This document shows positions 16,408-57,890 of a stretch of 64,000 nucleotides of DNA, in pieces. Position 1 is the first letter of the stretch. Each line of letters begins with the position of its first letter. The DNA is from Hydractinia symbiolongicarpus (taxonomy: Eukaryota; Cnidaria; Hydrozoa; Anthoathecata; Hydractiniidae), in NCBI RefSeq assembly GCF_029227915.1, contig NC_079875.1:25738001-25802000 (forward strand), given 5' to 3'. Below the pieces are notes generated by a model, which did not search any database, was not told the DNA's origin, and worked only from the letters and a program-made list of their open reading frames with translations. The position numbers were made by a program, and so were the translations under genes.

Positions 16408-16437
16408 ACACTGAACCATAAGTTAAATTAATTAGGT

Positions 16438-17840: not shown

Positions 17841-17985
17841 GTTTCAGATAAGTTAATGTTGTAGAAAAGTATAAATATAAGGAAAGAATATATACTAAAA
17901 TTAGCAATTTATGCCTCAACTGCGCCCATACGGTATAAACTTTATGAGCAAATGACCGGGAAACCAATAGGGGTAATCCCTACAA

Positions 17986-19487: not shown

Positions 19488-20699
19488 GTGGGTGCAAGGG
19501 GTTTCTGTTCAGAATCAGTAAGGACCTGTTTTCGTCGCCTTGGCTTCCCTAACAAGCCTTTACGTTCCCTATTAAAATCCCTAACTTTAACATCCATGAG
19601 TGCTTCTTTTTACATCTGGATGTCTCGAAATTCTACCACTTGGGTTGAGCCTGAAAAGGCCCCAATCATGCCTGAAGTTTCTTCTGTTACAAATATGGAA
19701 TGTAAGAATTCAAAAACCCCTGAGAAATCTTCCACAAGTCACACAAAATCTTGTAAAATCAAAAAACCCGAAAAACTTGCTACAAGGTCTTCCAAAACAA
19801 CAGTCGCGTTGCCATCTTACCCTGATTTTAGGAATAGCGGTCTAAAAAACTTGGGAAACACATGTTATGCAAACTCAATCTTACAATGTTTTTATAACCT
19901 TCCAAAAGTTAAAGAAGCCATTTCTGTCAGCAAAACAACATCAAAGTTAGGCGAAGCATTTGTAGGTGTTCTTCAACGTTTGGCTGTTTCTAGAAGTCCA
20001 GTTGATCCCTCCCATTTTTTGCGTGCTATGAAACATCATATCTCAGCTGCAAAGGGAAGTGCATTTAAAGTCTTTGCTCAGCACGACGTCCCCGAGGTTC
20101 TTGAATATCTCCTACCTGGTCTGTCATTAGACTTTCCATTTCTTGGAAGTCTTTTTAGTATTGGCATCAAGACATCAACCACTTGCAATTCATGTCATAT
20201 TACCAGCTCCTCAGAAGTTATAGCACCATGCATCCAACTTTCTCTGCACCCTACGTTACAATCTTCCTTACATAATTTCTTTGAAAGGGAGGAGTTGTCA
20301 GACACCAATGCCTACTTCTGCCATGTTTGCAACGCTCATCAAACTGCTCCAGTTGAAAAAGAGGTAGTGCCGTGCGGTTCCCATCTCATTTTACAGCTAA
20401 AACGTTTAGCCAGTGCCAACGGCCTTGTGTCAAAAATTGCCTCTCGTATTACTGCTTACCCTGGTAACCTTTCCATACCTTTTACCGTAGATGGAGAAGT
20501 GAAATTTCGTAAAAATTTTCAATTAAGGGCTATTCTCAACCATTGCGGAAACTTAAATAATGGTCACTCCACAACCATAGCCTTCGACCAAATGGTACAC
20601 AGGTGGATACATTGCAACGATAGAGCAGTAATTTTCTGTGATGACCGCCTTATTAACAGTCACGAGTCATATGTTTTCTTTTTAGAAGAGCTGAGATAA
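19488..20699 (+). CDS. LINE protein end: endonuclease tail fused to ubiquitin-specific protease
   Basis: One open frame of 403 codons, without its own start because the element is truncated. Residues 1-53 end the restriction-like endonuclease (GARGFCSESVRTCF). Residues 54-116 form a Lys/Ser/Pro-rich linker. Residues 117-403 form a peptidase C19 (USP) domain: Cys box GLKNLGNTCYANSILQCF with catalytic Cys126, a finger-like pair CNSC...CHVC, QLKRLAS, His box GNLNNGHSTTIAF with His360 (Ser replaces the usual Tyr), Asn377/Asp378, and YVFFLEELR. USPs remove ubiquitin from proteins. The domain is shorter than many cellular USPs but holds all boxes. Copies at 47638 and 21345 show the same fusion. Confidence 0.85.
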   Translation: MGARGFCSESVRTCFRRLGFPNKPLRSLLKSLTLTSMSASFYIWMSRNSTTWVEPEKAPIMPEVSSVTNMECKNSKTPEKSSTSHTKSCKIKKPEKLATRSSKTTVALPSYPDFRNSGLKNLGNTCYANSILQCFYNLPKVKEAISVSKTTSKLGEAFVGVLQRLAVSRSPVDPSHFLRAMKHHISAAKGSAFKVFAQHDVPEVLEYLLPGLSLDFPFLGSLFSIGIKTSTTCNSCHITSSSEVIAPCIQLSLHPTLQSSLHNFFEREELSDTNAYFCHVCNAHQTAPVEKEVVPCGSHLILQLKRLASANGLVSKIASRITAYPGNLSIPFTVDGEVKFRKNFQLRAILNHCGNLNNGHSTTIAFDQMVHRWIHCNDRAVIFCDDRLINSHESYVFFLEELR

Positions 20700-20722
20700 G
20701 AATATTTTAACCGGAATGAGTC

Positions 20723-20980
20723 AGCAAGGGGGCTTGACTACACTCAGTCTTGTCTTTGGAGAGTGAATACTCCACTTATTACCCCAGTCAAAAATAAAAC
20801 AAAATCAAATAAAAATTAAGTTAGGAAGGGGGTTTGATCATACTAGGTCTTGTCTTTGGAGAGTGACGACTCCACTTATTACCCCAGCTAAAAAAAAAGC
20901 ATTAGCAGGAGGGTTTGATCACACATGATCTTGTCTTTGGAGAGTAACGACTCCACTCATTACCTGAGTTAAAAACAAAG
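20723..20980 (+). repeat. array of three 65-bp structured units, LINE copy A 3' UTR
   Basis: Units start at about 20723, 20825 and 20908, each from AGCA(A/G)G to TTATTACC, joined by A-rich linkers. Each can fold with GGGG...CCCC closing two hairpins: GACT...AGTC, or GATC...GGTC or GATC...GATC; and TTGGAG...CTCCAC. The first hairpin differs among units with its pairing kept. Confidence 0.7.
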
Positions 20981-20989
20981 AATAGCACA

Positions 20990-21340
20990 GTTGAACAGAA
21001 AATGGTCAAAGTTTACTTTAGGAAGATAACGATGTCTAGTTTCTGCTGATGACCGTCCGCGGACCTCTTCGAGGTGACCCGGCTAGACATCCAGGGTACT
21101 TAGGTTCAGAAATATGGGTCGAAACCTACCTGCCCTTTGTTAAAGTTCTGTTCATCTTTTCAAATGTGTTTTGTCCTTTTTATTTTTTTAGATTTTTTTT
21201 TAATTAATTCCTTGTAAAAAGGGAGAATTGTGCTTTTAGAGGCATTTTCTCTAGAGGAGTACAACCTCTAGCTTATTTCCAAAGACCTAACAGGTTCAGT
21301 TCATCATTGCGGTGGCTTGCCACCTCTTTGTAAATTATCT
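20990..21340 (+). ncRNA. conserved hairpin tail of the USP-encoding LINE
   Basis: Conserved between copies A, B and the tail at 1208-1607. GATGTCTAG pairs with CTAGACATC around GTCCGCGGAC and CCTCTTCGAGG hairpins. Then come TAGAGGAGTACAACCTCTA and GGTGGCTTGCCACC, and the element ends in TTTGTAAATTATCTTCTT. In the RNA this would be the 3' end recognised by the reverse transcriptase. The role is inferred from position. Confidence 0.5.
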
Positions 21341-21344
21341 TCTT

Positions 21345-22720
21345 GGTTCAGAGGTATCATCTTCTCCAACTTGATAAGGTATCCCCGATATTTTGACGTT
21401 TACACTACTTCTATGGTATTGAGCTGATTCATTTGATGTAGCTTTCACTTGCTCCAACTGGGCTTTTTTAGTTTACGAAGTTCCGATATCTCACGTTGTT
21501 TCACTAGAACAAAAGCTTTCTTTCTTCATAAGAAAGTGCCTGACACTCCATCACTCTATTTCTAACATAGTTTATATTCCGCTTCATCGCCATGCCCTCT
21601 ACCTTTAAAAAGCCTATCCTCTGTACTAAAGTCTGCTAAGATCAGTGGTCATCTTCTCCTGTGAGTCTCAGAGTCAACTCGAGTTCAAGAAAATGCATGG
21701 TTTCCACCAGCCATAAAAGTGTCCCACTAATTGGTACCCATTCTTACCGCAAACTTGTATCAGATGTTGTGAAGGACAATGAGGAAGACACCTATTATGC
21801 TCGAGCCGTTCAGCTTCATGTCCAAAGTAACAGGACTAAGTGGTGATCGTTTATTAAATACGATCTTTCTTCCTACTGTCTGCCGCAAAGTTTATTTTCG
21901 TTTTTCATCGGCGCAACCTATGACACGCTACCTTCTCCTACAAATCTTGTCAAGTGGGGAATTCAAAAGGACAAATGTTGCACTCCTTGTAAAAAAACCC
22001 TCTAGTAATGTTTCCCACATTTTAGGCGATTGTAAATTAGCCCTTTCACAATGTAGTTACTGTTCTACGTGTGTTAGTTACAGCCATCTAGATGTCATAA
22101 AATATCCTTTGTTCAAGCTGGTAAACGTCTTCCCACCTAAAAGCGTTAAAAGATTCAAGGAATCCTTCACCTGGCCTCTGGTTGGAGATTATTTTCAGAC
22201 TTAGACTTAACTTTATTAGTACCACCTAATCTTGCTGTAACTTAACTTCGTCCGGACGTACTTGTAACTTCTGCCATGACCAAAACTCTAATTATCCTTG
22301 AATTAACTTGCCCATGCGAAGAGAACATGGAGGCATGGAGTTAAAGTTGATAAATACTCATCAATATGTTCCGTCTTGAGATTAAACAATTGGTCTGTGC
22401 ATTTCATTGCTGTTGAAGTAGGAACTAGGGTTTTTTGTTCCGAAACAGTTAGAATCTGCCTCCATCGCCTCGGCTTCGTACCACTCTGAATTCTCTTGCT
22501 ATCTCGAGATTCTATGTCTTGGATTCATCCTGGTAGGCATCCACAGCATACCGCTCAATTGATAGCAACTCTTTCAAAGAAATCATCCAAGTCACAAGCA
22601 ACTTCAACCACGAGCTTTAAGGACAAGAAGCACCAGGGCGTAACAAAGAGCTCCACAACCTTGCCTGCACAAGAATCACTAGTCAGCAACAGCAGCTTGC
22701 TAAATTTGGGCATCACATGT
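21345..22720 (+). pseudogene. USP-LINE copy 2, RT end, zinc knuckle, endonuclease, start of USP
   Basis: In several frames: LVYEVP (21478 on, matching LIYEVS of copy B), THSYRKLVSDVVKDNEEDT, then HILGDCK of the zinc knuckle, then the endonuclease LRPDVLVTSAMTKT (22246 on) and ILELTCPCEENME, giving the RPD...E order of restriction-like endonucleases; copy B has RLD at the first position. A Ser/Lys-rich linker (22550-22680) leads to SLLNLGITC, the start of the USP Cys box, cut at 22720 by the BEL/Pao LTR. Confidence 0.75.
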
Positions 22721-23204
22721 TGTACAGTTAACACTGGAGTTGTGTTGATTTCGTGTTAAATGATACTATACGTTCGTTTCGTGTCCAATATGTTTGTTAT
22801 GTGCATGTTTTATTGTTCTTTTATAATGTATTGCGTAATTAACTTGTGTTTTATTTTCGTCTCTCAAGTATGCTATTTTCGCTCAAAAAGACAAAGTAAC
22901 AAGTTAAAATCAAGTTTCAAATACAAAAGTTACAAAGTTTTGTTTTATCAAATTTCAAATAAATTTCGTCAGTTAAAGAAGTTCAAGAAAGTTATACACC
23001 CACAATGTTCATCCTGTCAAGCCCTGTAAAGAATAGTTGGTATATGTTTGTTATTTATTTAGTTATTATTCATTTCAAATTTAGGCGTTGTGTTTTTCTT
23101 TGTATTTCATATTTTCTGTGTATTTGTTTTAGTTTGAACCTTGTTTAACAAAAAGTTTCAAACAATTCTATCAGGGTTTTTTGTGATCCCGCGAAAACTT
23201 AACA
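22721..23204 (+). repeat. 5' LTR of the BEL/Pao element
   Basis: 484 bp from TGTACAGTTAACACTGG to GCGAAAACTTAACA. It matches 30425-30957 apart from small changes and one 50-bp indel. Confidence 0.9.
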
Positions 23205-23235
23205 TTCAAACAACTATAACCCAAACCTACAAAAC

Positions 23236-26200
23236 TTGGAACCTTACTTCAAAAAATTCATGAGTAAAAGAGTCCAATCCAGAATTGATTATAAACTTTT
23301 GCACAATACGGGCAAAAAAACCCAAAAGGAAATCGCATCAGTGTGTGACGAATCAATAAACGAACTTTCAAATTTACTTCAAAACATCAGTGTTGATGAT
23401 TTAGATATGGCAAACGATAAAATTGTCAAAATTAATGCTTTACTTGCCGCCATAAACGATTTTGTTGAGGAGAATGAAATCGACTCATTTGCCGCTGTTA
23501 TTTCAGATATTGATGTTTGTGTTAAAAAAATCGAGATTAAAAGGTCAAATTTGCGTTCGCTTTCTAATCAAATCAAATTAAATATTGGTAAAACTAAATT
23601 CAAAGCAGAATTTGCCAAAAACGTCGAAATGTCTTTTGCTAACATCAAAACTTATATAAAGTTTGCCAAAGATGTGAGAAAATCAATTAGAGCAAAAGAG
23701 AAAGCGGATTTTACCAATAAAGAAATTTCAAACGAAAAACATCATTTTGAAATTACGAAACAAAAAATTGAAACTACTGGTTTTGTCATCAATGAAATTT
23801 TTCGCATGATAAATGAACTTTCAAAAGATTTTCAAGTCAACAAAGACACAAACGATGAAATAGTTAAATAGGAATCAAATTTACAACTTAAACTTTGTCA
23901 ATGTGAAAAATTAGCAAAGAAAATCCAGTATTTGTTGGACACTCTCCCGTCTAAATATCCAGATAAGGAAAGTGTTTTGCAAACGATAATGGAAGCTTAT
24001 GAAAAATTAAATTTTCAAAAGAAGGAATATGTCGAAAATCTTAAAACTGAAATTCAAACCAGGAAGTTATCCAAAGAGAAATTTTTTATTTCGTCAAATC
24101 TTATTATAAAATTGGAGAAATTCAGAGGTTATGAATCGAAGCTTGATATTTATTCATTTCAATCCATGTTTGAGGAGCTTTATTAAAAAACAACACCTTC
24201 AAAATTGTTACCAGACTTACTTAAAAATAATCATCTTGACGAACCTGCGCTGTCTTTAGTGAAAGGTCTTGAAAATATTGAGGACATTTGGATTGGATTA
24301 AAAGGAGCATATGGTGATTCCAAAACAATTCTTCAAAAGAAACTCGAAGATGTTAAGAAATTTGGTCCGCTATGGAAATTAAAAAGTCACAATACGTTGC
24401 AATACTGTTTATCAAAACTTATTACATTACTCCAGGATATTCTTTCTCTGTCCAAAGTTCATAATATTCAAAATAGGCTTTATTTTGGTGATGGTTTGAA
24501 TATGATTTACCATATTATGGGAGATGCGAGAGTTACTAGGTGGTTTTCTTCTATCTATGAGGAAAGTTTACAAGAACCTGAAAAGTGGGAGAGATTGATT
24601 TTATTTCTTGAGAAGGAATTAAGGATACAACAAGAGAAGGCTTTGGTTACTAGGCATCAGGCTCCTGAGTACAAAAAAGATAAAAAAAAATTATCGCAAT
24701 GATTCGAGAGATAAGTACAAAAGTTACCATATAAATGATAGGCAAAGCGATAAAGCCCCCATATGTCACATCTGTAATGAATCTTCTAGTACTCATATTG
24801 CAACCAATGGTCCAAATGGTACTAAAATTATTCAGTACTTTTCATGTCAAAGGTTTGCTGAAATGACTCCCTCAGAGATATTCCACACTATTAAGGCTAA
24901 AGGTTTATGTATTCAATGTCTTTTTCCAGAAGCATTACAGTCAACAGGTAAACATTCACAAGGAAAGTGTCAACGCAATTTCGTATGTCCTCATTCTCAC
25001 CACGACAAACACACGGTAAAGAAACACGTTTTGGTATGTCAAGACCACTGTGAAACGAATCAAGATGCTCTTCAGAAGTACAAAGACAGATGCATCCTTA
25101 AACAAAAAGTACCTTTGCCTGAATTCGCAAAGAACATCAAGCTGTCATTTCATACCCAATCAGCTTACGTATCACTGAAAGGTAATGCGAAATCCAACTC
25201 TGTAGATATCACTGAACATGCGTCTACATACTCCAAACAATCAAGATACAAAATGAGACGTACACCATATTCTTTGATAATGGATGTGGAGATTTCGTAT
25301 GCAGACATGAAGCAACTAAAAGAATAAATGACACTCAAGAAAGAGCTGGTCCAGTTACACTTGGAGGAGTTGGCAATTTAAAAACTGAATCACCACATGC
25401 CATCTACAGCGTAACGTTACCACTACATGATGGAAGACAAGCAGTCATGACAGGAGTTTGCATAGACCGTATCACAAGTGACTTTCCCTTGTATCCTCTG
25501 AGAGTGAAAGTGTCAGACGGCATTCAAAACCATTATCGCAATCATGGAGGCAGATAGAAAATCTACCACAGTTACCAGAGTCCGTAGGAGGTCAAACCGA
25601 CTTTATGATTGGAATCAAATACCTGCGATATTATCCCGAAATAGTATTTCAGATGCCTTCAGGTTTGACAGTTTATCGATCTCCTTTTTGAATGCATTCG
25701 GTGGCAGAGGAGTAGTAGGAGGACCACATTCTGTGTTTACAGAAATAGACAAATTTCATCATCATAATCGATCCATTATCAGCCAACAATCGTACCCTAG
25801 CCAGCAGTATAGTCTATATAAAATGGGCTATCAAGTCAACCCAGATATAGGAATTCTAAAAGACAGTCATCAATTTGTACACCAGCTGTCAGTAGAAAAT
25901 CATGAAAGTCCCGAAACCTACATCGTCCGGAAAAATGAAAATATTCGATCAGGTAGAAGAAGTTGGTTCAGAAATCAAATATAGACGTGTTGATTGATTG
26001 TAGATCATGTCAGAAATGCAAAAATGGGGAGAAAATTGAAATTCTAAGCTTAAAGGAAGAAGTGGAACAGGAATTAATAGATCGGTCGGTTTCAGGAGAT
26101 GAGTCAAGTAACCTCACAATAGCCAGACTACCATTCATTCATAATCCTGCAGTGAAACTTGCTCCAAACAAGAAAAAAGCATTGAAAGATTACTACACTC

Positions 26201-27086
26201 AACTCAGAAAGCTTAACAAATCTGTTAAAGATAAGGAAGATGTTATCAATTCAGAAAAGAAAATGCAATCACTTGGATTTGTGGAGTTTGTGCACAACCT
26301 TACACCGACACAACAACAGTCATTAAAACACCATCAACTCTATAACTTCATTCCCTGGCGTGCGGTATGGGGAAAATTGTTTACAACACCATGTCGACTT
26401 GTGTTTGACGCGTCACAACCCACTGACAGTGGAACAAGTTTAAATGACATACTTGCTATAGGTACTAATAACATGAATAAATTGCTGGAAATCTTAGATG
26501 TCAGTCCAGGATCTACATGGATAGAAGGATTCGAGTGGATGAAGTCAGACGTATCAAAATTTCCTGCATACAAATTTATCCGAAACAATAAAAGAAATTG
26601 CACACCATGAAGAATCACCAGATATACTTGTTTTCACAGGTTAAGAAAAATATCTGACGAGGTAATATCCAGGTACGAATTGTCAAATTACGTTATCGAT
26701 CCATTGAAACATAGATTCAGTCAAGTTATCCGATTACTTGGACTTATTTACAGATTTATCAGTAACTGTAAAAATAAATGTTTTATTACAAAATCAAATA
26801 AGTCCATCTCTGAAGTGGAAGCAATTATCTTGCCTAGTGATGACTTGAAGACTGCCAGAGAGTACTTTTGGAAAAAAGCAACTGCTGAAGTTAAGAAATT
26901 CACAAAAAAAGATGCTTATGCTAAAATATCAAAAGAAAACAACAATATACTGTATTATATAAAACGTATTCTACCAGATCAGAAGTCCACTATGACAGAT
27001 GTTATGTTACATTTGACAAGTTCCACATTTTTTGCACCAATTGTTGATAAGTATTCACCTATTGCTTATAGTATACCGTATTTCCT
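23236..27086 (+). pseudogene. BEL/Pao gag-protease-RT-integrase N-terminal part, decayed
   Basis: Gag-like helical frames at 23236-24702. Cysteine/histidine clusters CIQC...CQRNFVCPHSHH (24863 on) precede a protease region with DNGCGDFVC, GPVTLGGVG and GVCIDRITSDFP (about 25280-25490). Then FMIGIKYLRYYP and GGPHSVFTEID, the RT start CRLVFDASQ...GTSLNDIL (about 26390-26460), a jump to TWIEGFEWMK, and YVIDPLKHRFSQVIRLLG, the linker before integrase (26690 on). The RT catalytic core between GTSLND and WIEG is deleted. Many stops and frameshifts; not functional. Confidence 0.8.
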
Positions 27087-27269
27087 CTAAAGAACGCCGC
27101 GGCGTTCTTTACAAAATGCAATTTTTAGGTGCGGCGTTCTTTAGAGGGTGGCGTTCTTTGCAGGGCGGCGTTTATTACAAAACCATGAGTGAGACAAAAA
27201 GCAGAAGTTGACGTTAAGTATTTTCTTTAAGATTAAATATAGATAACAAAAGAATTAAACTATGAAAAG

Positions 27270-28688
27270 TCTATTAAACAATGTCAATGTCGCTATCGCC
27301 GTCCGAGTCTTCGTCGATAACATGAAAGGACTCATAGCTTTCATTTACATCACAATCGTAAATTTCAAATGGGTTGTCAGAAGATTGGTCTTCTTCCAAT
27401 GCCTCAGTTGCTTTTTTCATCAAGGTAGCACCAGATGAACAGGACGATCCTTCTTTAAAACAATGGATTTGTCCATCCTCTGATCCATCAAGAGCTAAAT
27501 TTAAACCACTTGAAAGATTTGATAATCATTTCCGTGCTCAAGCCATTCCATGCGTCTAAAACCCATTGCACTAGCTTTCGTCGCGATGGAGGTTTCTGGT
27601 TTCCTCTTTTTGTGAACTGTTGAACACCTTCAACCATCCATTCGTTATAAAGATCGATCATCCGACTCTTAAATGGTTTATTCCATGGGACATCTGGTGC
27701 CTGTATATATTTAGTGCAGCCTTATGAGAATTATGACATTCTCAATTCTGCCTTTTGACAATTCTTGTTTCACGGAATCCATCATGTGGCATTCAAATGA
27801 ATCCCAAGCTAACAAGCGTCGATTAAAGGAAAACTTTCCTAAAACTGTTTGCACATAGTGTAAGGTGAGTTCCTCGTTCATCCATGCATTTTTTGAGGAC
27901 ACAACTACGCATTTATTTTTGAATTCAGTATTTAGTTCTTTGCATTCGCGTTTTGCACCACCAAAAACAATAAATGGTTTAAATTTACTTCCGTCTGCCT
28001 TTGCTGTCAAGCATACAGAAATTCTGACATTTTCATGACCAGTCGATTTAAGCATAATTTCTCGTTCGCCACGCTGTGACACCGTTGTAGGTGCTGTCAT
28101 ATCCGCCCAAACAGCAGTCTCGTCCATTGCAAGAATCGAACCGGCGTTGAATTGGTATTTCTTTGACATTCGGCGGACATGTACTACATACTGCACCAAC
28201 CTGTCCACAAGATACGCTGGATCCTTTTGAACTGTTGTCGTTCTACGACGTAATGAAAGACAATTTCGTTTCATGAACTTTTCCAACCAACCTCGACTAG
28301 CCTGGAAACTATTTTTTGCAACAGTGTCCTCTCCAGCTTTTTCATCGTGCATTGCTTTTGCTTTTCTCATTATCAGTTTTCTCGAAACACGCAAAGAATT
28401 AGCTCTCCTATCATGTATCCATTCGAGCAGATCTTCTTCTAAATCAAGATTCTTGATTTTGCAACCTCCTCCTTCTAGTTTGAATCTTTTCGCTGCTCCT
28501 TGTTTCAACTTCTCCACATTAGCTCTCCATTCTCTTACTCTTTTTTCATCGACACCGTACTTTCTTCCTGCTTCGCGATTTGATGTACTAATTGCATGAT
28601 CAACAACTGTTGTCTTAAATTCAAAGGTAAAGCTTCTTCTTTTTTCCCCTTTATGGGATATTAACTGCTTCTCCTCGTTGTGCGACAT
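27270..28688 (-). pseudogene. pogo-like (DDE_1) transposase, frameshifted
   Basis: From ATG 28688: helix-turn-helix part FKTTVVDHAISTSNREAG and KRVREWRANVEK, then the CENP-B-like DNA-binding half (WIHDRRANSLRVSRKLI, GWLEKFMKRN), then the catalytic core with MDETAVWADM (first Asp) and LLAWDSFECHMMDSVK (second Asp). After NVIILI the frame is lost; GCTKYIQAPDVPWNKPFKS, holding the region of the third Asp, is found in another frame (about 27660-27705). An acidic end (DEDSDGDSDIDIV) stops near 27277. One or two indels inactivate it. Confidence 0.8.
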
Positions 28689-28932
28689 TTTTCTAATGAA
28701 CTTTCACTTACAAACATAAAAGTGTGTAAGGTTGATATATACAGATTGGGAGCAATTATCTTGTAGTATTGTTTACTGGTGTCAACTTTTTCTTTAAACA
28801 CTATTAACAATCCAAGGGAGTGTTATTTTCGACGAGATCAAAAGCGCGGAAAATGATTTTGAATAGAATTTTTTCTCTATAAGAAAAAGTTCTATTTTTA
28901 TCAATCGTTGATTGCACGCTCATACGAAATAT

Positions 28933-29439
28933 ATGATAGCTACACGTGGAAGTCAGAGATTTGAGAAGAACATGGCTCGAGTGATTCCTAAAACATTTGA
29001 AATGTATTTCATCATTAAATTCTCTACAAATATTCGCGGACATCATGTTTATAAAAATATATGGACACCCATTATAGGAGAATCTTTGGTTTGCAAAGAA
29101 GACAAGAGAGTAGAGGCTCAAGAACTGGACAAGAATGCAATTGGAACGTACAAACTCATGGACGGCAACGAAACCTTAGTGGGACATTTGCCAATAGAGT
29201 TGTCAAAGCTGATATCGTTTTTTATTGAAATTGGAGATAATCATGTAAATGCGACAGTTACTGGGAAACGAAAACGAGAGATTGGTTTGAGTGTACCTGC
29301 AAAGTTCATTTGTTTTACATCTAGCAAAAGTTATGCTAAAATTCTTCACGGTGAACTGTTAAAGCGTAAAACTAAATATTCGTGTTTGTCATTAGATGTA
29401 GAAGAATTTTGTGAAAGAAAACAGATCAAATTCATATAA
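28933..29439 (+). CDS. HIRAN-like domain protein carried by the pogo-like element
   Basis: 168 aa from ATG 28933. It contains RGHHVYKNIWTPIIGESLVC, then ELDKNAIGTYKL, then ETLVGHLPIELSKLISFFI, then NATVTGKRKREIGLSVPAKF. This order (entry strand with W, G-E-L-C, N-A-x-x-Y, VGHLP) resembles HIRAN domains, which bind DNA ends in chromatin remodellers, and small HIRAN-like proteins that are numerous in invertebrate genomes. The frame is open although the transposase is broken. It lies inside the transposon ends and diverges from the transposase across about 240 bp that could hold a shared promoter. Confidence 0.6.
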   Translation: MIATRGSQRFEKNMARVIPKTFEMYFIIKFSTNIRGHHVYKNIWTPIIGESLVCKEDKRVEAQELDKNAIGTYKLMDGNETLVGHLPIELSKLISFFIEIGDNHVNATVTGKRKREIGLSVPAKFICFTSSKSYAKILHGELLKRKTKYSCLSLDVEEFCERKQIKFI

Positions 29440-29536
29440 ATACCAACTTTTTTTACTTTCCCTATTAAAATGGTTTTTTTCTAATAAACGCCGCATCTAA
29501 GGTGCGGCGTTCTTTGGAGGGCGGCGTTCTTTGTAC

Positions 29537-30355
29537 CACAACATCAGCCATAAACATAAAAGTCATGGAAGCTTACAGCACCTCAGGTTCAATCCAAGCG
29601 TTTATTCGGTTTTCATGTAAGGTTGGATATCTAAAAATCCTTTTACCAGACGAAGGAAGCAAATTAGTGAGTGGATGGAAAAACATGAAAATCACGTTTA
29701 TGGATTTAAAGGGTGGAATTAAAAAAAAATGGGAATTAAATTCGAGACATGCCCTGTTGGGGGACACTATGCATGGTAAAGTAGAAAGAAAAATTAAACA
29801 AGTTAAAGAATCTATATTAAAATCAAATTCAAATGAGAGACTTTTTATACTACAGTGGGAGACTCTGGGTACAGAAATAGCCAATTGTATTAATGATCTC
29901 CCATTAGCTATTGTAGATGTCACAGCTGATTTTGAAAATGCTGATCTAATAACACCTAATCGTTTACACCTCGGCCGCAACAATGACAGGTCACCAGTTG
30001 GTCCTATTGCCTCAACTGTTAAGCCTTGGAAATTTATTGATCAAAACCGTAGGATATTCAATGCATGGTTCAAATATTGGTTAAAAACCTATGTACCTAA
30101 ACTAATGAAACAACCAAAATGGTTTCGAAATGATCTTAATATCAAAATTGGCGACATTGTCCTATTCCTAAAAGCAGAAAATTTGTCAGGACAATATATG
30201 TATGGTTTAGTAGTTGATGTTGAATTTGGGAACGATGGTCGTATAAAAACTGCTGTTGTTAGATATCGAAACTCAAGCGAATCGACTAATCAAGTGCAAA
30301 CTGAATTGCATGAAGCTGCGTTGAAAGCAAAAGCGATGTTAAATTATATTCATTA
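29537..30355 (+). pseudogene. BEL/Pao integrase end and DUF5641 tail
   Basis: Open frame after the pogo-like insertion: CTTTSAINIKVMEAYSTSG and LLPDEGSKLVSGW belong to the integrase core, and NRRIFNAWFKYWLK with FRNDLNIKIGDIVLF and YMYGLVVDVEFGNDG form the DUF5641 domain typical of BEL/Pao. It is separated from the rest by the 2.4-kb insertion. It stops 69 bp before the 3' LTR. Confidence 0.85.
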
Positions 30356-30424
30356 AGACAAATCTCAAAATATTGATTATCGATATCAATTATCAATCAA
30401 AAATTTTCATTTGTCTGGGGGCAA

Positions 30425-30957
30425 TGTACAGTTAACAATGGATTTGTGTTGATTTCGTGTTATATAATACTATACATTCGTTTCGTGTTCAATATGTTTG
30501 TTATGTGCATGTTTTATTGTTCTTTTATGGTGTATAGCGTAATTAACTTGTGTTTTATGTTCGTGTCTCAAGTGTGCTATTTTCATTGATAGAATTTATA
30601 TATGTAGTTTTTTCACGTTTCCTTATTTATTCCCGCGTAAAAAGACAGTAACAAGTTTAAATCAAATTTCAAATACAAAAGTTACAAAGTTTTGTTTTAT
30701 CAAATTTCAAATAAATTTGCGTCAGTTAAAGAAGTTCAAGAAAGTTATACACTCACAATGTTCATCCCGTCAAGCCCTGTAAAGAATAGTTGGTATATGT
30801 TTGTTATTTATTTAGTTATTATTCATTTAAAATTTAGGCGTTGTGTTTTTCTTTGTATTTCATATTTTCTGTGTATTTGTTTTAGTTTGAACCTTGTTTA
30901 ACAAAAAGTTCCAAACAATTCTATCAGGGTTTTTTGTGATCCCGCGAAAGCTTAACA
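30425..30957 (+). repeat. 3' LTR of the BEL/Pao element
   Basis: 533 bp from TGTACAGTTAACAATGG to GCGAAAGCTTAACA, preceded by the polypurine run GGGGGCAA and followed by target repeat CATGT. Confidence 0.9.
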
Positions 30958-31734
30958 CATGTTACATCAATTCCATCTTGCAATGTTTTTACGTGTTACC
31001 CCCAGTCGCCACAGTTATCTCTGCAAATGACTCCAATATGGCGATAGGTAAAAGTTTTGTAAGTATTCTACGCAAATTTTCCTCCTCCAAGATTCCAGTG
31101 AACCCTTCTTCATCCTAGAGATTCTTGAGTATCTCGTACCAGAGTTGTCTTTAGCCTTTCCTTTTTTATAGATTATTTAACACTTGTGTGAAAGTCTGTA
31201 CTACTTGCAGCGCTTGCAATAATATTAGCACCTCTGAGCAAGTAAGTCCATTTCTTCAACTGCCTTTGACATTAACTTTACAATCTTCAGTAGATAACTT
31301 TTTGGAGAGCGAAGAATTGTCAGGTGTTAACTCGTTCTTCTGTCACTACTGCAATAGTTACCAAAATGCAATAGTTGAAAAAGAGGTCGCAGAGTGCAGT
31401 TCAATTTTGTTTCTGCAATTAAAGTGATTTGCCTATGGGTCTTGTGTCGAAGGTTTGTTCTCATGTCACATCTTACCCGGGCACCGTTTCTATACCTATC
31501 ACTGTAGACAGTAAAGTCTCATCTTACCCAGGCAACGTTTCTATACCTATCACTGTAGACAGTAAAGTCTCTTGTCGCAAGCACTACAACTTAAGGGCTG
31601 CAATTAACCACTCTGGAAATTTAAACAATCGCCATTACACTACTGTTGCTTACAACCAAGTGCATGGTAAGTGGTTTCATTTCAACGACAGAGCAGTGGT
31701 CCCTTACATCCTTTTCCTTGAAGAGGTTAGGTAA
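30958..31734 (+). pseudogene. USP-LINE copy 2, rest of the USP domain
   Basis: Resumes directly after the target repeat with CYINSILQCFYVLP (Cys box), then fingers TCSAC...CHYC, and the His box GNLNNRHYTTVAY, ending FLEEVR at 31734. Frameshifts lie near 31110 and 31425. A 63-bp tandem duplication (two copies of SYPG(T/N)VSIPITVDSKVS) is present at 31468-31593. The Gly before the catalytic His is Arg. It is inactive, but its divergence from copies A and B shows the USP domain is an old part of the family. Confidence 0.75.
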
Positions 31735-31852
31735 ATTGCAGTTAGGACCACAACTTAGGTTTATATCAGCAAGGGGGTGTTTGACTATTCTTACTTTATT
31801 TTGTAGTCTTGTCTTTGGAGAGTGACGACTTCACTTATTACCCCAGTCAAAT

Positions 31853-32560
31853 TAAAAGCGAAGAACAAAATAAAAAGGATCTTGGCTAAACTTTTCGTAC
31901 ACGTTCTCATTGGATAATTGACTCACCGCCTCCTTAAGATAATCTTCCCTATCCCACACGACTACCCCAGATCCTTTATCAGCTGGTTTGATAACGATAG
32001 ACATGTCAGAACGCAGATTTCTAAGCGCTTCTTGTTCTGCTATTGAAATATTACTATAATTTGATTTCTCAGCTTTTATAGACATTTACTTCTCCTCAAG
32101 AACACTTAGATAGATCTCAATAGCACTATCAACGTTTTTGGGATGAAACTTAGAAGGTACCCTAAAGCATTTAGAAATTTCTTCACCCTCTTTCTCCCGA
32201 AAATACCGAATGCATTGTTTTAATTGAGCTCTATCAAGTTCCTTTGGAGTGGATGAAAATTTAAGCCCTCTTAATAAAACTGAAATTTCGGCCTCCGAAA
32301 ATACTCTTTTAGATAGGTTAAAAACATTACTAGACAGAAATTTCCTGTAATACGTCCATCACTCGAATTATGTCTTACCACACTTTCCACCTCTTTATTA
32401 CTTTCATTTTCCTCTATTCCAGAGTCATTTTTTCTTTCTACATCGTTGGTATTTCTTTTTCGACAAACGTTAACTTCAGCAGGAACCGGTTGTTCAATTT
32501 CTGTAATCACATTTATTTCGGGTAAGTTAGCGGAACAAGAGTTACTCACCATAGTAACCT
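31853..32560 (-). pseudogene. Penelope-like element, N-terminal fragment
   Basis: The minus strand reads NVFNLSKRVFSEAEISVLL, GLKFSSTPKELDR and RSDMSIVIKPADKGSGVVVW, the conserved N-terminal part of Penelope-like proteins that comes before the RT. A frameshift lies near 32330. It breaks off at 31853 within YEKFSQDP, next to LINE copy 2. It is the part the Penelope-like copy at 4047 lacks, but the two are separate insertions. Confidence 0.75.
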
Positions 32561-46840: not shown

Positions 46841-47637
46841 TAAATTTTCTGCATAACGTTGAGCTGTTTATCAAAAAAACCCATTCCTCCCTAACTCCTA
46901 ACAGACACAACTTGTTGAGCTAACTGAAGCAACTTCTTATATTTCTGTGCCTGTGTTAACTTTTTCCGGCTTTGGCGATTGTCTTGTAACGTTACAATAT
47001 ACGCTTAGCTGGTAAAAGGTAACCTAAAAAGGGAATAAACTACAAACTGCGCACTCTTTTCAATACTTTCCGAAAGTGCGCAAAATTTATTTTACCTTTC
47101 GTAATTTTTGCTTCCCCTGTTTTACATCCACCAAGAGTCGTACATTCTGATAACAAATTCGGAGCAGCTGCTTGATGAATGTGTCCACCAACTGGTTGAA
47201 GGAAAGAAATATATGATCTTACTCAGTTGCTTTCAACTAGACAGGGTAAGGAATGTGTGGAAATTTATTGAAATAAATGCTTACCTCCGCCACGTATGTA
47301 TGTAGCAAGTGATATCTAATAATATGGGTTTATTCAATCCTTTGTTATCTTTGGAGATAAGTAAAATATATAAAGACCTTTATGAAATTATTACTATTCT
47401 ATATACTATATATATCAGAATTGAGAGACTTAGATTTCTCAGACAACGAAAACGATCTTGAGATTTCTAATTCTGGAATTTCAGAGATGCCTTCCTTGCA
47501 GTTATTCCACAATTAGAGTGAATCTGATGATGAACCTGTCGCCCATATCTCTAAAAAAAGCAAATTGAAAGTTGAGAAAAGCAACATGCAAAACCATATT
47601 GCATCGTTTCTGTTTAACATTTTTCAAGCTTGTCTAA
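46841..47637. other. no gene recognised; one acidic frame
   Basis: At 47430-47630 a plus frame reads SDNENDLEISNSG, a stop, then SESDDEPVAHISKKSK, like the acidic N-terminus of a piggyBac-type transposase, but without a catalytic part. Otherwise unrecognised. Confidence 0.3.
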
Positions 47638-50600
47638 AGTAGTCTTTTATTCCTGTGCAATGGAGAATTACATCAGAAGTTTATATACCTAAAACAACAC
47701 ACCTTGTCCATCCAACATAAAGAATTTTCGCCCCATAGCTCTTCTGAATGTTGAAGGAAAGCTCTTTTTTAGTTTGATTTCCAAGCGGTTAGGATCGCAT
47801 ATTATAAAGAAAAACAACTTCATCAATACTTCCATTCGAAAAGGTTGTATGGAAAAAGTTCCGGATTGCTGGGAACACATGTCTATTGTTTGGTCCACAC
47901 TTAAGAATGCGAAGGCACAACATTCTTCGCTTTCAGCCATATGGCTTGATATTGCTAATGCGTACCCTTCAGTTCCGCACAAGCTGATTTTTATGGCTCT
48001 CAGACGCTATGGTGTACCAGAATCATGGATAAGGCTCATACAGCTATACTACGCTTCTGCTCCTTCCAGTTGGCATCAACACTGTAGGGGAATTTTTATC
48101 GGCTGTACACTTTTCATTATACTATTTCTTGCAGCTATAAACGTTATTATTGAGTATGTGTGTGTTACCCCCAGCCTTATTGATACTGAAGGTAATAAAA
48201 ACAAAATCCTAGACCAACCCCCAATAAAAGCTTTTATGGATGATATGTTCTTAATGTCCACGTCAATTCCAAGTACTCAAAATTTATTAAACAGGTGTAC
48301 AACAGCTCTTGATTGGGTAGGCATGTCGTTTAGGCCTTCTAAATCACACAGCATTGTTATTGATAAGGGAAAAGTTGTCCAAAGTTCACCGTTTACAGTT
48401 GGCAGCGAAAAAATTCCATCCATTCATTCTAATCCAATTAGGTTTTTAGGCAGAACAATAAACTCATCCTTGTCTGATTCTGCTGCAATACAAGAATTTC
48501 TAAATGATGCCGAAGACAAACTTATGGCTATAGACATGTCCTTTCATAAAGGGGTCCATAAGGTTTGGTTTTTACACCATCTGTTAATTCCCAGAATCCG
48601 CTGGCCATTATTAATTTATGAAGTTTCTATCTACTATCACAAAACTAGAGCAAAGATTTTCTGTTTTCATTAGGAAATGGTTAAAACTACATCATTCAAT
48701 TTCCAACATTTTCTTATATTCCTCGACAATGCCTTGTCCTCTTCCCCTGAAAAGTCTTGCATCTGTTCTCAAATCTGCCAAAATCAGTGGACATCTGTTA
48801 CTAAGAGATTCTGTCGACCCTTGTGTGTCTAAGTGTGTACCAGTTTTGAAAGCTGGAAATTGGAAAGTTAGTGAGGCAGTTCTTTCGGCGGATGGTCAGC
48901 TCAATTTCAAAAGGATTTTAGGTTTGCATCAGACTGGTCGAGCTGGCTTAGGGCTCTTAGACCACAAAAATATACCACCAAAAGGCACTTATGCTTACCG
49001 AAAGCTTGTTTCCAATATCATTGAAGAAAATGAAGAAGATATTTACCATGCCAGAGCTGTACAGTTGCATTTGCAAGGCAATTGGACGAAATGGTGCTCT
49101 GATGTAAAAAATGATTTATCTTGGAGAACAATTCTTTCACTGCCACAATGTCTAACTTCATTTTGTATAGGGGCAACCTACGACACCCTTCCCTCTCCAA
49201 CCAATCTTGTGAGATGGGGAATTGAGAAAGACAAAAGTTGCATTCTGTGCAAGAAACTCAAATGTCTCTCACATATTGGGTGCCTGTAGGACCTCCCTTA
49301 CGCAGGGTAGATACACATACCGTCATGACTCGGTTTTAATAGTTTTGGTTAAGGCATTAAAAGAGTTTTTGGTATCATATGAACCTCTTAGCTTTCCAAG
49401 TGCAACAAAATTAATTTCATTCCGGCCGGTCAATCACCATCTAAGAAGAGGCATACAAAGTGTCCAGGCCTTCTTCACCTTGCTTCCGATTGGAAAATAC
49501 TGTCAGATTTAGATTCTGTTTTAGTTGTTTCACCATACATTGCAATAACACAACTGCGCCTAGACGTGTTATTCATATCCAGTTCTTCCAAAACTGTAAT
49601 TATGTTAGAACTGACTTGTCCATGTGAAGAGAACACGGAATATTGGCACAAACGAAAGCTTAACAAATATTCTTCACTTCGTTATGCTATGAAAAACAAT
49701 GGATGGATCGTGCATTTCTTTGCCATTGAGGTGGGTGCAAGGGGTTTCTGTTCAGAATCAGTAAGGACCTGTTTTCGTCGCCTTGGTTTCCCTCGCCTTG
49801 GTTTCCCTAACAAGCCTTTACGTTCCCTATTAAAATCCCTAACTTTTACCTCCATGAGTGCTTCTTTTTACATCTGGATGTCTCGAAATTCTACCACTTG
49901 GGTTTAGCCTGAAAAGGCCCCAATCATTCCTGAAGTTTCTTCTGTTACAAATATGGAATAAAAGAAATCAAAAAACCCTGAGAAATCTTCCGCAAATCAC
50001 ACAAAATCTTGTAAAATCAAAAAACCCGAAAAACTTGATATAAGGTCTTCCAAAACAACAGTCGCATTGCCATCTAACCCTGATTTTATGAATAGCGGTC
50101 TAAAAAACTTGGGAAACACATGTTATGCAAACTCCGTCTTACAATGTTTTTATAACCTTCCAAAAGTTAAAGAAGCCATTTCTGTAAGCAAAACAACCTC
50201 AAAGTTAGGCGAAGCATTTGTAGGTGTTCTTCAAAGTGTGGCTGTTTCTAGAAGTCCAGTTGATCCCTCCCATTTTTGCGTGCTATGAAACATCATATCT
50301 CAGCTGCGAAGGGAAATGCATTTAATATCTCTGCTCAGCATGACGTCCCCGAGGTTCTTGAATATCTCCTACCTGGTCTGTCATTAGATTTTCCATTTCT
50401 TGGAAGTCTTTTTAGTATTGGCATCAAGACATCAACCACTTGCAATTCATGTCATATTACCAGCTCCTTAGAAGTTATAGCACCATGCATCCAACGTTCT
50501 CTGCACCCTACGTTACAATCTTCCTTAGATAATTTCTTCGAAAGCGAGGAGTTGTCAGACACCAATGCCTACTTCTGCCATGTTTACAACGCTCATCAAA

Positions 50601-50955
50601 CTGCTCTAGTTGAAAAAGAAGTAGTGTCGTGCGGTTCCCATCTCATTTTACAGCTAAAACGTTTTGCTAGTGCCAACGGTCTTGCGTCAAAAATTGCCTC
50701 TCGTATTACTGCTTACCCTGGTACCCTTTCCATACCTTTACCGGAGATGGAGAAGTGAAATTTCGTAAATATTTTCAATTAAGGGCTATTATCAACCATT
50801 TCGGCAACTTAAATAATGGTCACTACACAACCATAGCCTTCGACCAAATGGTACACAGGTGGATACATTGCAACGATAGAGCAGTAATTTTCTGTGATGA
50901 CCGCCTTATTAACAGTCACGAGTCATATGTTTTCTTTTTGGAAGAGCTGAGATAA
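47638..50955 (+). pseudogene. LINE polyprotein: RT, zinc knuckle, restriction-like endonuclease, USP
   Basis: RT: VYIPK, then FRPIALLNVEGKLFF, WLDIANAYPSVPHKLI (motif A), RGIFIGCTLFIILF (motif B) and PPIKAFMDDMFLMS (FMDD, about 48240), then the thumb to TYAYRKLVSNIIEENEED. Knuckle CILC...SHILGAC (about 49240-49290). Endonuclease LRLDVLFIS...VIMLELTCPCEE...KRKLNKYSSL and IEVGARGFCSES (49558-49770). After a linker with two stops (49905, 49959) the USP follows in the same frame: KNLGNTCYANSVLQCF, fingers CNSC...CHVY, His box GNLNNGHYTTIAF and FFLEELR. Frameshifts at about 47700, 48650, 49280, 49510, 50278 and 50745. Dead, but it shows the complete domain order. Confidence 0.85.
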
Positions 50956-50974
50956 GAATATTTTAACCGGAGTC

Positions 50975-51345
50975 AGCAAGGGGGCTTGATTACACTGAGT
51001 TTTGTCTTTGGAGAGTGACGACTCCACTTATTACCCCAGTCAAAAATAAAACAAAATCAAATAAAAATTAAGTTAGCAAGGGGGTTTGATCATACTAGGT
51101 CTTGTCTTTGGAAAGTGACGACTCCACTTATTACCCCACTTAAAAAAAAAAAATAAAAAAAATAAAAAAAAAAATATTAGCAGGTGGGTTTGATCACACA
51201 TGATCTTGTCTTTGGAGAGTAACGACTCCACTTATTACCCCACTTAAAAAAAATAAATAAATAAAAAATAAAAAAAAAATATTAGCAGGTGGGTTTGATC
51301 ACACATGATCTTGTCTTTGGAGAGTAACGACTCCACTTATTACCT
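50975..51345 (+). repeat. array of four 65-bp structured units, LINE copy B 3' UTR
   Basis: Units start near 50975, 51076, 51178 and 51284, with A-rich linkers that expand in the last two intervals. Units 3 and 4 are nearly identical, so one has been duplicated here. Where the start changes from AGCAAGGGGG to AGCAGGTGGG, the end reads CCCCACTT, which still pairs. Confidence 0.7.
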
Positions 51346-51689
51346 GAGTTAAAAACAAAGAATAGCACAGTTGAACAGAAAGTGGTCAAAGTTAATTTTA
51401 GGAAGATAGGGATGTCTAGTTTCTGCTGATGACCGTCCGCGGACCTCTTCCAGGTGACCCAGCTAGACATCCAGGGTAATTAGGTTCAGAAATATGGGTC
51501 GAAACCTACCTGCCCTTGGTTAAGGTTCTGTTCATCTTTTCAAATGTGTTGTGTCCTTTTTATTTTATTTTTTATATTTTTTTTAATTAAATCCTTGTAA
51601 AAAGGGAGAATTGGAAACAAGCTAGAGGTTGTACTCCTCTAGAGAACATGCCTGGTGGCTTGCCACCTCTTTGTAAATTATTTTCTTAT

Positions 51690-53833: not shown

Positions 53834-53879
53834 ATTACGGAGTTTCATACCGCGCAGATCTGGGCCCGACCGAAGTGGC
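53834..53879 (+). repeat. flank shared with ISL2EU-like copy 1
   Basis: Matches 15454-15497 (ATTACGGAGTTTCATACCG to CGAAGTGGC) and directly precedes the left end of copy 2. Confidence 0.6.
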
Positions 53880-54004
53880 TTGTAGGGACAAATTTTCAGA
53901 ACTCCCGCAAAGTGTAAACATTTAGCTAGCGTTTGTACACACTTCCAAGTTATTATATTATAGTTATTTGCTGTTTAACACTTTTACGTATTGTTTTTGC
54001 AATA

Positions 54005-54640
54005 ATGGAAAAGAAAGATTGTGTACAATGGTTTATGGAACGTGGCCTGTCCACAGGAGGAACAATACAAGAGCTTAATATGCGTGTTAATCGATTCAAA
54101 TTATACCCATCACTTGCGGAAAAATTGAGAGTCAAACGAGAAAGAAATTTTAGTTTTGGTACAACATTAGATCCCAATCTTATCCCTCCCATTTCAGCTC
54201 CCTGGTGTCCTAAAGAGGAATTGTATCCAATAGTTACAGCATCGATATTTAAAGAATATAGTTCTAGAAAAAGAGAAGGTAGTTTAGGTCAGCAACAGAA
54301 AGCTTATGCTATGTTGACTAGCAGGAAAATAGTTTCAGTAAAAACACATGTTGCAGGTGATAATAATGTATTTGTTAGAACTCTTGTTAAAAAATCATAT
54401 GGTGAATTAACAAGACCTACAGTTATTCTATTTAGTAGTAATATTCCAGTTAAAGCCTACTGTGAATGTCCTGTTGGTGTAAGTGGCTTATGTTGCCATA
54501 CATTGGCCTTGCTTCTCTATTTAAAAAACTTTCACGAAACAAAGGAAAAATTTTTGGCTCTATCTTGCACTGAGCAACTGCAGAAATGGCATAGCAGAAC
54601 AAGAAAATTTCTTACTCGTCCAATGAATCTCTCCACATGA
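54005..54640 (+). pseudogene. SWIM-type zinc-finger protein, copy 2, C-terminus lost
   Basis: ATG 54005, MEKKDCVQWFMERG. The SWIM motif is complete: KAYCECPVGVSGLCCHTLAL, with C-x-C and C-x-H. After WHSRTRK the frame runs into antisense transposase sequence at 54607 and stops at 54640. The function of this element protein is unknown; SWIM fingers bind DNA or proteins. Confidence 0.7.
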
Positions 54641-56050
54641 ATTCTAGTAGATGCAATATCAAAATTTGCAGCAACATCAGCAGGTGAAAATTGATCTGTA
54701 TCTTTTTGGGCAGGTCGATTTAAAAAAACACCTTTTATGGAACAATGATCTTGTACGAAAAAACCTCTATCTGACATAAGTTCATGTTCAGGTCGCACCC
54801 ATTCAAGAACAGCAGTTTCTTCAGTTATAGCGCTGTCACTAATTGAACCAGGATATATGTCACTGAAAAAAAGGCCACTTCCATGTGCTGAGATTCCGAT
54901 TAAAGCTTTACCGGTGACAGTGTTTTTATAGTTAGAAAATATAAGGGAATTAAGTTCAAAGTTTGGAGCATGTTGAAACTTAAATTCTGTACAATCAATA
55001 ACTAAGTCGGTCAACCCATGTCCTGTTCGAACAAAAATATCTGGCATTTTCTTTAATAAAAATCCATCATCTGGTTTTAAGTCCGACTGACTGAAAAGTG
55101 TTTCTAAAAAAACAAGCCATCCAACAAATATCCTATACATTGTGCTTTTACCAACACCTGCCATATAAGCCATAACGCCAAGATGAAGAGAATGACGACA
55201 AATTGTTAAAACACATAAAAGTTCGGTTGCTTTGTTTAATGATCTTTCCCCAGTTCCTTTACAGTCAGGGTATTTTATAATGTGTAAGTATGGTGAAACA
55301 ATTTGAAATAGCAAGTCAAATTTTTCAACGGGCAAACCAGCTAAATATTCTATATTGCTAGATTTCTGTTGTAAGTTGTCATAGGAAAATATATACTTTT
55401 GAAGGTTTAGAATTGTTCCTGTTTTTTCAAGAATTATTTTATTTCGTTTATTAACAAATGATTGCAGGTAGTGGTTTTTAATTTTTAGTAATTTATTTTC
55501 ATGGGTAAGATTCTTTATTTTATTATTTGATTCGTTTATTTTTTTTTAAGTTCTTCAATAATTTTGTCTTTAGATATTAATTTAGCAGATAACTGTCTCT
55601 TTGAGGGTTCTCTTTGTATATGTACTGGCGTAGAATATATTCTTTTAGCAGAAGGTTTTCTCTTTACACTAGATGGTGTACGAAGTGTTTGGATGAATTC
55701 AAATTTTTTTTTTAGCTCCTTAACTTTCATTTTATTTGCTGCACTTTGGGTTTTTTCAAGTCTTTCTTTTGCTCTATTATATTTTTGCTCAATAATAGGA
55801 ATTTGTGACTGGGGTAATGTAACATCAGGAAGAGTGTCATTAATTTTATAACCAGCACTCCAATGTTCACAACATATATATGTGTCCGTTTTTCCAATTA
55901 ACTCCAGCAGTTTTAATAATTTTTTGGTACTCCATTTGTAAATCCTTGGTCCTTGGCAATCTGTAAAATACAAGCTTTTCTCCATTTGAATTTTGTGTTC
56001 GAAAGTTATTATAGCAAAGGGATGACGAGCAGAACCATTTCACCATGTTT
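54607..56050 (-). pseudogene. THAP/DDE_Tnp_4 transposase, copy 2, C-terminus lost
   Basis: THAP finger start MVKWFCSSSLCYNNF (56047 on), with TYICCEHWSAGYKIND in a shifted frame (about 55850-55880), so the finger contains an indel. Coiled coil to 55536, then the DDE core from about 55420: GVGKSTMYRIF, LVIDCTEFKFQHAPNF (first Asp), KALIGISAHGSG, YPGSISDSAI (second Asp), HELMSDRGF, IHVERFIGRVR, ending at the deletion. The segment after the first Asp shows what copy 1 lost. Confidence 0.75.
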
Positions 56051-56237
56051 TAGATAAGTTAAATGTTGTAGAAAAGTATAAATATAAGGAAAGAATATGT
56101 ACTAAAATTAGCAATTTATGCCTCAACTGCGCCCATACGGTATAAACTTTATGAGCAAATGACCGGGAAACCAATAGGCGTAATCGAGTGCAACATAAAC
56201 AAGCTAAAAATTTGTCCCTACAACGACTAAAACAAAA

Positions 56238-57339: not shown

Positions 57340-57890
57340 GCTATTCGGTTTAAGAGTTTTCACTTCCCTTTTGAAAATTTGATTAAAAATATTCCAGCCA
57401 TTGTAATAAATGTATTCCTATTTCTTTACGAAACAATCAAGACTGTTATTGATTTGTTCAATGCTTGCCGTACATTTTATTCTACTTGTTTCCAAATCAT
57501 TTTTCTGTCAAAAAATCAAGCCTACACTTATGGAAAAATGGATGTCTTTTGAAGAGAGTCTTGTTAAGTCCCTAAATTGAATGAAGTCAGTCTAGTTTCA
57601 CAATACACGTGGGAAAAATTTCTTGAAGCTTGTTCCGCGAATGACAATTATCTATACAAATGGGTTTAACTGAGTCAGTTGGCACTGCTATATGTTCAAA
57701 TAAGTAGAAAATGATTGCGAATGAGGCTCCTTTAGTCAAGCAGAAATTTTTAACCATCCCCATTTCATTCAGGACACTAAAAACACTATGAAATTGTGTC
57801 ACCTAACGTCCATTCTTGCCATAACCAATATTGGTTGCCCTTTTGTGTGATCGCATGACAACCTTTCAACTTACATTTCAGTATTAAAAA
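57340..57890 (-). repeat. host repeat with transposase-like coding; uninterrupted partner of 1090-2010
   Basis: On the minus strand it reads VFSVLNEMGMVKNFCLTKG, CIDNCHSRNKLQEIF and CIVKLD, then decays. It is continuous across the site (57775) where the copy at 1208 has the LINE tail, so it serves as empty site. Transposase family not recognised. Confidence 0.6.

Follow-up and report, generated by a model that had tools for sequence, protein, structure and literature searches.

Ubiquitin-pathway proteases are already known in transposons. NeSL and Utopia-1_TSP carry N-terminal Ulp1-like domains, according to the accessible part of the source (PMC4640811). Ginger1 DNA transposons, many of them from Hydra, bear a C-terminal OTU or Ulp1 domain, and a Trichomonas vaginalis protein, XP_001314237.1, joins transposase_11 to Peptidase C19 (both from the accessible part of PMC2836005). 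Our literature search covered the openings of abstracts, with Repbase Reports, subscription papers and preprints outside its scope; among the papers listed, it found none on a C19 domain encoded by a long interspersed element (LINE). We regard a LINE that has a restriction-like endonuclease (RLE) and a C-terminal ubiquitin-specific protease (USP) of family C19 as new, and an earlier description is possible. Here, we describe such an element in a window of 64,000 nucleotides, which is positions 25738001-25802000 of contig C1 in the 480.9-Mb assembly (76 contigs) of the colonial hydroid Hydractinia symbiolongicarpus. Very probably, it belongs to an old lineage of RLE LINEs that encode one protein with a catalytic USP at its end; the USP would act tethered to the reverse transcriptase (RT) and RLE at integration.

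Like NeSL and Utopia-1_TSP, the Hydractinia element is a LINE of the RLE type that carries a cysteine protease from the ubiquitin and SUMO world; however, their protease is Ulp1-like and N-terminal, whereas the present one is a C19 USP at the C-terminus behind the RLE (PMC4640811, as far as its accessible part describes them). Ginger1 is likewise a hydrozoan mobile element with a ubiquitin-pathway protease behind a DNA-cutting enzyme, but it is a DNA transposon with an integrase-like transposase, and its protease is OTU or Ulp1 rather than C19 (PMC2836005, same part). XP_001314237.1, compared by its description there, shares the fusion of C19 to a mobile-element enzyme; it differs in being a protist DNA transposase and one protein (PMC2836005). 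The R2 proteins (PDB 9nl3, 9dou and 8gh6) have a related RT and thumb (profile E 7.6e-11). In R2, the knuckle and the RLE stand in the same order as in the Hydractinia element, and we know of no USP in it. R2 inserts into 28S rDNA, whereas the flanks of the family studied here (family 1) are diverse.

The first-pass annotation, made from the sequence alone, had read an RT with motif C FMDD, a CCHC knuckle, an RLE motif and a USP in this order on the plus strand, and our analysis confirmed it in the copy called B (Table 1; RVT_1 6.4e-18, 47693-48673). It had bounded the element at 47638 to 51687; an element does lie there, but its homology spans about 47538 to 51686. The best PDB match of the RT was an R2 retrotransposon protein (1.7e-6 with a single sequence, 7.6e-11 with a profile). 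With RVT_1 at 6.4e-18 and R2 proteins as the top PDB matches, the RT is related to those of R2 and other non-LTR elements. Behind the RT, the CCHC knuckle and then the PD...E endonuclease motif are recognizable at the motif level. In family 1, the knuckle residues C, C, H and C are kept in 19/19, 19/19, 18/19 and 17/20 copies, and the RLE residues P, D and E in 17, 19 and 21 of 21; the zf-RVT profile stayed below its cut-off in copies L013 and L010.

The protease was identified in a second copy, A, which had been described as keeping the RLE tail, linker and USP in one uninterrupted frame. This frame is indeed open from 19476 to 20699, and the profile check proposed for it placed Pfam UCH over residues 121-401 (9.7e-28; 97.9 bits, where the curated cut-off is 23.9), which assigns the domain to Peptidase C19. 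A structure model built from a 43-row alignment has the USP fold; its structural matches are human USP2, USP21, USP46 and USP8 (24-27% identity in structural alignments), which differ from it in being cellular proteins. A first model, from a seven-row alignment of window sequences only, was useless (pLDDT 33.5) and was replaced. The Cys-His-Asp triad and the finger cysteines of C19 are present, and we take their catalytic and finger roles to be those of known USPs. The triad residues are kept in 20, 22 and 19 of 22 family-1 copies and in 3/3 each in the diverged family 2. An N-terminal Ulp1 (C48) domain, as in the NeSL clade, was not found in 33 long relatives, where only UCH, RVT_1, UCH_1 and zf-RVT matched at E ≤ 1e-3, and the N-terminal frame of Hydractinia copy L019 had no Pfam match at 0.05. 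Chance resemblance is excluded by the profile scores together with the other copies and relatives.

We investigated whether these domains form one protein and one mobile unit. Copy L013 has an unbroken frame of 667 amino acids running from the knuckle through the RLE and linker to a nearly whole UCH profile (2.4e-27). Copy L010 has a frame of 514 amino acids with RT, thumb and knuckle, which shares with that of L013 an overlap of 118 residues (93% identity). A 563-residue frame in L021 contains UCH (6.5e-28), and a 611-residue frame in L028 starts in non-element sequence and ends inside the USP. The genome-wide search for copies suggested by the first-pass annotation gave 43 matches to the RLE-USP junction at 40 places on nine contigs (40 of 426 candidates scored), and thus at least 40 copies, duplicates included; none of the 21 family-1 copies examined had a single frame from RT to USP. 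The 5' starts of the fetched copies are scattered, and in 16 of 20 the expected place holds the 3' terminus TTTGTAAATTATTTTCT or one close to it, followed by differing flanks (the motif is absent from that place in the other four). The window holds two relatives besides the copies already noticed, namely C and D. Copy C consists of the 3' untranslated region (UTR) only and terminates like the fetched copies. The scattered 5' starts, the common 3' end and the flanks of copy C are the pattern left by target-primed reverse transcription. The insertion flanks of family 1 showed no clear rule of target duplication.

Because this first genome search was selected by the RLE-USP junction, we also made a census with the RT alone. 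With 40 of 210 candidates scored, it gave 42 matches, which lie at 40 places; 11 of these places were also in the junction list. Twenty other RT copies were checked by 1-kb windows, and a USP match was present at the expected distance in ten, including L031, where the USP is inverted relative to the RT. Among the ten without a nearby USP, 4-kb stretches revealed one with a partial USP and 3' UTR past a deletion; the other nine lost homology at nine different points between 2386 and 3845 of the reference L019, whose USP begins at about 3813. Altogether, 22 of the 31 RT copies examined hold USP sequence, nine are broken before or at the USP, and no alternative 3' end recurs. We considered a family 1 without USP; since each homology stops elsewhere, the nine end points fit broken copies better.

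The layout extends beyond family 1. Using tblastn in the same genome, we found the same domain order in families 2 and 3. Family 2 shares 44-56% of USP residues and 56-70% of RLE residues with family 1, and family 3 shares 31-37% and 30-53%. We then counted mismatches per codon position (1/2/3) in frame-blind nucleotide alignments, for which no shuffled control was made. Between families 1 and 2, the USP values were 0.35/0.26/0.58 (L019) and 0.36/0.23/0.58 (L023), and those of the window RLE were 0.32/0.26/0.52, so the periodicity is present in the USP as in the RLE. Within family 1, dN/dS was 0.59-1.57, which is uninformative because copies decay after insertion.

Protein searches were made with L013 (96 matches at E ≤ 1e-5), P0012 (best 120 of 199 at E ≤ 1e-20) and P0063 (83 at E ≤ 1e-10), and gave a set of 270 different proteins. 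At a profile coverage of at least 50% for RT and RLE and at least 15% for USP and DarT, 63 had RT, RLE and USP, 70 RLE and USP, 50 RT and RLE, 30 RLE only, 26 USP only, 20 RLE and DarT, 6 RT only and 3 DarT only; one had RLE, DarT and USP and another RT, RLE and DarT. The order RT, RLE, USP was found in 63/63, of which 58 match 90% or more of the USP profile, and all 33 long relatives chosen had both RVT_1 and UCH in Pfam. The missing parts of many partial proteins do not amount to true absence, because the contigs are 2-4 kb long. Among the matches listed, the relatives with organism names were Hydractinia gene models and two proteins of a Pseudomonadales metagenome-assembled genome, which are probably eukaryotic contamination. 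Cellular USPs of other named organisms appeared in the L013 search with weak scores. IMG/VR held no relatives, and the GTDB contigs one distant RT-RLE match (L029, 27% identity), on a contig that ends before any USP could begin. The adjacency of USP and RLE is thus not restricted to duplicates of this locus, as had been allowed for at the outset: the same order occurs in three diverged Hydractinia families and 63 database proteins. These also support the interpretation of a LINE that encodes a USP fused behind its RLE.

In some related proteins of RLE LINEs (P0201, P0202, P0203, P0206 and P0063), the endonuclease is followed by a DarT-like ADP-ribosyltransferase domain (PF14487). In P0201, RVT_1, a zf-RVT match just below its cut-off and DarT lie in one protein, and P0063 has RLE, DarT and USP. 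In view of this DarT-bearing sister lineage, the position that follows the RLE looks like an accessory slot. In P0185, the RLE is followed by a tail of 488 residues that has no Pfam match at E ≤ 0.01 and is perhaps another appended domain.

To see how the USP evolved, we compared it with the remainder of the protein. Fifty proteins combine RT and RLE with an almost complete USP. All 50 keep each catalytic residue (Cys, His and Asp) and each RLE residue (P, D and E), and the four finger cysteines are kept in 48, 50, 50 and 50. Of the 102 proteins that have an RLE and an almost complete USP, 102, 101 and 102 keep the Cys, His and Asp of the triad, and all keep the RLE P, D and E; the K column of the RLE is kept in 78. 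The median divergence (n = 50) was 71% for the USP and 51% for RT-RLE, and the two distance matrices were positively correlated (Spearman's correlation, ρ = 0.772, reached by 0/1000 permutations). The simplest reading is that the USP is kept catalytic while its remainder drifts. The USP seems to be a long-standing, functional part of the element, and not something that happened by chance in a single genome.

Domain layout (RT-knuckle-RLE-linker-USP), spread as one RNA unit, catalytic conservation and the co-divergence of USP and RT-RLE are all seen in the sequences, and we infer that the USP is an active deubiquitinase. The translated protein would bind its own RNA, the RLE would nick DNA, and reverse transcription would start from the nick. 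The RT-RLE protein would carry the USP to the place of integration, where the tethered domain could act before or during RNA binding, nicking and reverse transcription. Because the fusion holds the USP on the RT-RLE protein, the USP is more likely to find its substrates in cis or where integration takes place than free in the cytosol. The USP would most likely strip ubiquitin in cis off the element's own protein or ribonucleoprotein (RNP), which would thereby escape proteasomal turnover; possibly it would also deubiquitinate chromatin, or factors of DNA repair, where the target has been nicked. Among the main uses considered, we give self-protection of the protein or RNP the best odds, though below even.

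The catalytic USP may instead work mainly at the target site, where it would deubiquitinate histones or repair and replication factors, so that nothing halts cleavage, reverse transcription or second-strand synthesis. This is possible but on the unlikely side. The USP starts behind the RLE end in 134/134 proteins with both; the DarT-like domain in the same slot, which Pfam names "ssDNA thymidine ADP-ribosyltransferase", hints at nucleic-acid work; and for the Ulp1 and OTU domains of transposons, the authors of the Ginger study proposed a part in DNA repair (PMC2836005, accessible part). However, position in the protein alone cannot separate this use from self-protection, and the fold matches USP2, USP21, USP46 and USP8 are uninformative on substrates. 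The faster evolution of the USP (0.71 against 0.51) is what an arms race could give if the USP were a defence antagonist that acts in trans on host silencing or sensing factors, fused for co-expression only. We consider this improbable, and faster change is expected for any less constrained domain.

A further question is how often the USP was acquired. The RT-RLE tree (94 rows, quick IQ-TREE, LG+G4, SH-aLRT only, with any USP profile match counted as USP) has a branch of support 100 that separates 70 rows (59 with USP, 10 without, 1 with another tail) from 24 rows with none (21 without, 1 DarT, 2 with another tail). USP presence takes 4 changes on it, or 5 if other-tail rows are counted as lacking USP; a 73-row mixture-model tree takes 4 among 67 scored rows, or 9 if its six unclear rows are counted as lacking. 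Of the ten USP-less rows inside the USP clade, eight form a clade of their own, and the other two stand singly and are perhaps cut short. One gain of the USP followed by loss appears the most economical history of these sequences. Several independent gains, with family 1 and other lineages acquiring it separately, seem quite improbable, because the 59 USP rows lie in one clade with co-varying distances, and 51 LINE USPs and that of P0063 are separated by one branch (96) from cellular USPs. The cellular outgroup is only six, 18 of 24 having been dropped for short matches, and is too small to name a donor. P0063 itself, which has no RT and is therefore outside the RT-RLE trees, speaks for more than one gain: its USP is very diverged (branch 1.88), its best matches are RLE-DarT proteins, and one second gain there is likely. 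That the USP is a functionless passenger, a host gene acquired at the 3' end by read-through transcription, would fit its position as the last part of the coding region, as expected after transduction, and the decay of Hydractinia copies, but this or a one-locus artefact can be dismissed, given the constant order and linker position in three diverged families and 63 database proteins, the codon periodicity, and 50/50 catalytic residues at 71% median USP divergence.

Several observations weigh against our interpretation of an old lineage with a tethered catalytic USP. No unbroken frame from RT to USP was found in 21 family-1 copies (20 fetched and copy B), the longest being 667 amino acids, and 9 of the 31 RT-bearing genome copies examined have no USP within about 4 kb. 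In family 3, which has few and decayed copies, Cys is kept in 4/4, His in 1/2 and Asp in 2/3, and the USP codon signal is weak (0.50-0.51/0.41-0.51/0.58-0.61). Most relatives are metagenome records. The clade of eight without USP inside the USP group means that the USP is dispensable in some elements, and our proposals on its substrate and direction of action are conjectural.

A single-protein LINE with a conserved, tethered USP and with USP-less sister elements makes it testable, through relatives with and without USP and catalytic mutants, why proteases of ubiquitin and SUMO turn up again and again in transposons. It is conceivable, though we put it below even chances, that a widespread LINE lineage depends on a tethered deubiquitinase for retrotransposition and that the slot behind the RLE docks various enzymes that modify protein or DNA in this superfamily, with a USP in one clade, a DarT-like domain in another and both in P0063. 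Such USPs can also pass for host deubiquitinase genes. P0024, "ubiquitin carboxyl-terminal hydrolase 20-like" of Hydractinia in NCBI, is a family-2 LINE USP fused to other sequence, and its USP is 83% identical to that of copy D over 90 residues; therefore, some host deubiquitinase counts may include LINE fragments.

Table 1. Copies of the USP-encoding LINE in the window and the retroelement that splits one of them.
Feature	Position	Strand	Description
Copy B	47538-51686	+	Family 1, 5'-truncated and decayed; RT-knuckle-RLE-linker-USP-3' UTR; homology with 20 fetched genome copies
Copy B, RT frame	47693-48673	+	Motif C FMDD (KAFMDD near 48230); RVT_1 6.4e-18
Copy B, thumb and start of CCHC knuckle	48615-49289	+	Shifted frame; unbroken counterpart L010:4383-5924
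Copy B, RLE	49392-49907	+	RLD here, RPD in most copies; ELTCP
Copy B, USP	50094-50952	+	Split over three frames: Cys box, finger part, His box
Copy B, 3' UTR	50956-51686	+	Repeats of about 100 bp; terminus TTTGTAAATTATTTTCT
Copy A	19488-21343	+	5'-truncated, RLE tail to 3' terminus; 92.6% identity to copy B over 19488-20984
Copy A, open frame	19476-20699	+	RLE tail, linker, full USP
Copy C	1206-1606	-	Truncated, 3' UTR only; both flanks match one continuous repeat at 57344-57872
Copy D, first part	21459-22720	+	Family 2; thumb, knuckle, RLE, linker, USP start (LLNLGITC); stops and shifts
LTR retroelement in copy D	22721-30957	+	LTRs 22721-23204 and 30425-30957; LTR pair 86%
Copy D, second part	30958-31876	+	Rest of USP (CYINSILQCF ... 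RHYTTVAY ... FNDRAVV) and a 3' UTR repeat

Copy B is decayed, and several frames share its broken coding region. Its start was worked out from L009, a near-identical duplicate that the same contig carries at a distance of 3.19 Mb (25787392 and 28977404, 99.7% over the core), and its 3' end matches other copies. Copy A probably also has a duplicate, 3.09 Mb away (25757488 and 28847885), judging from the equal query range and score in the genome search. Because of these near-identical duplicates on one contig, the pairs are not independent insertions; they may have arisen by segmental duplication or be an artefact of duplication in the assembly. Close to the terminus, 43 bp of the 3' UTR have opposite orientations in copy B (51611-51653) and copy A (21240-21282). 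Family-1 copies lie inside or beside family 2 or 3 elements in L016, L017 and the window (19488-22720), and in L016 the RLE of a family-3 element is interrupted by a family-1 copy. The LTR element in copy D has TG...CA ends, a 5-bp target duplication (CATGT) and a DUF5641 match (1.7e-11) that fits the BEL/Pao-like group to which we presume it belongs.

Other mobile elements were also found in the window. An RT element at 4047-5978 (+; RVT_1 2e-10), which we take to be Penelope-like, lies between 260-bp inverted repeats at 99.6%. Remains at 11130-13469 (-), which include a finger and a region similar to an endonuclease, resemble another LINE (weak zf-RVT match, 0.0031, below cut-off). Two copies of one DNA transposon, about 93% alike and presumably PIF/Harbinger-like, are located at 15452-17978 and 53834-56185, and the one tested matched DDE_Tnp_4 (6.2e-21).

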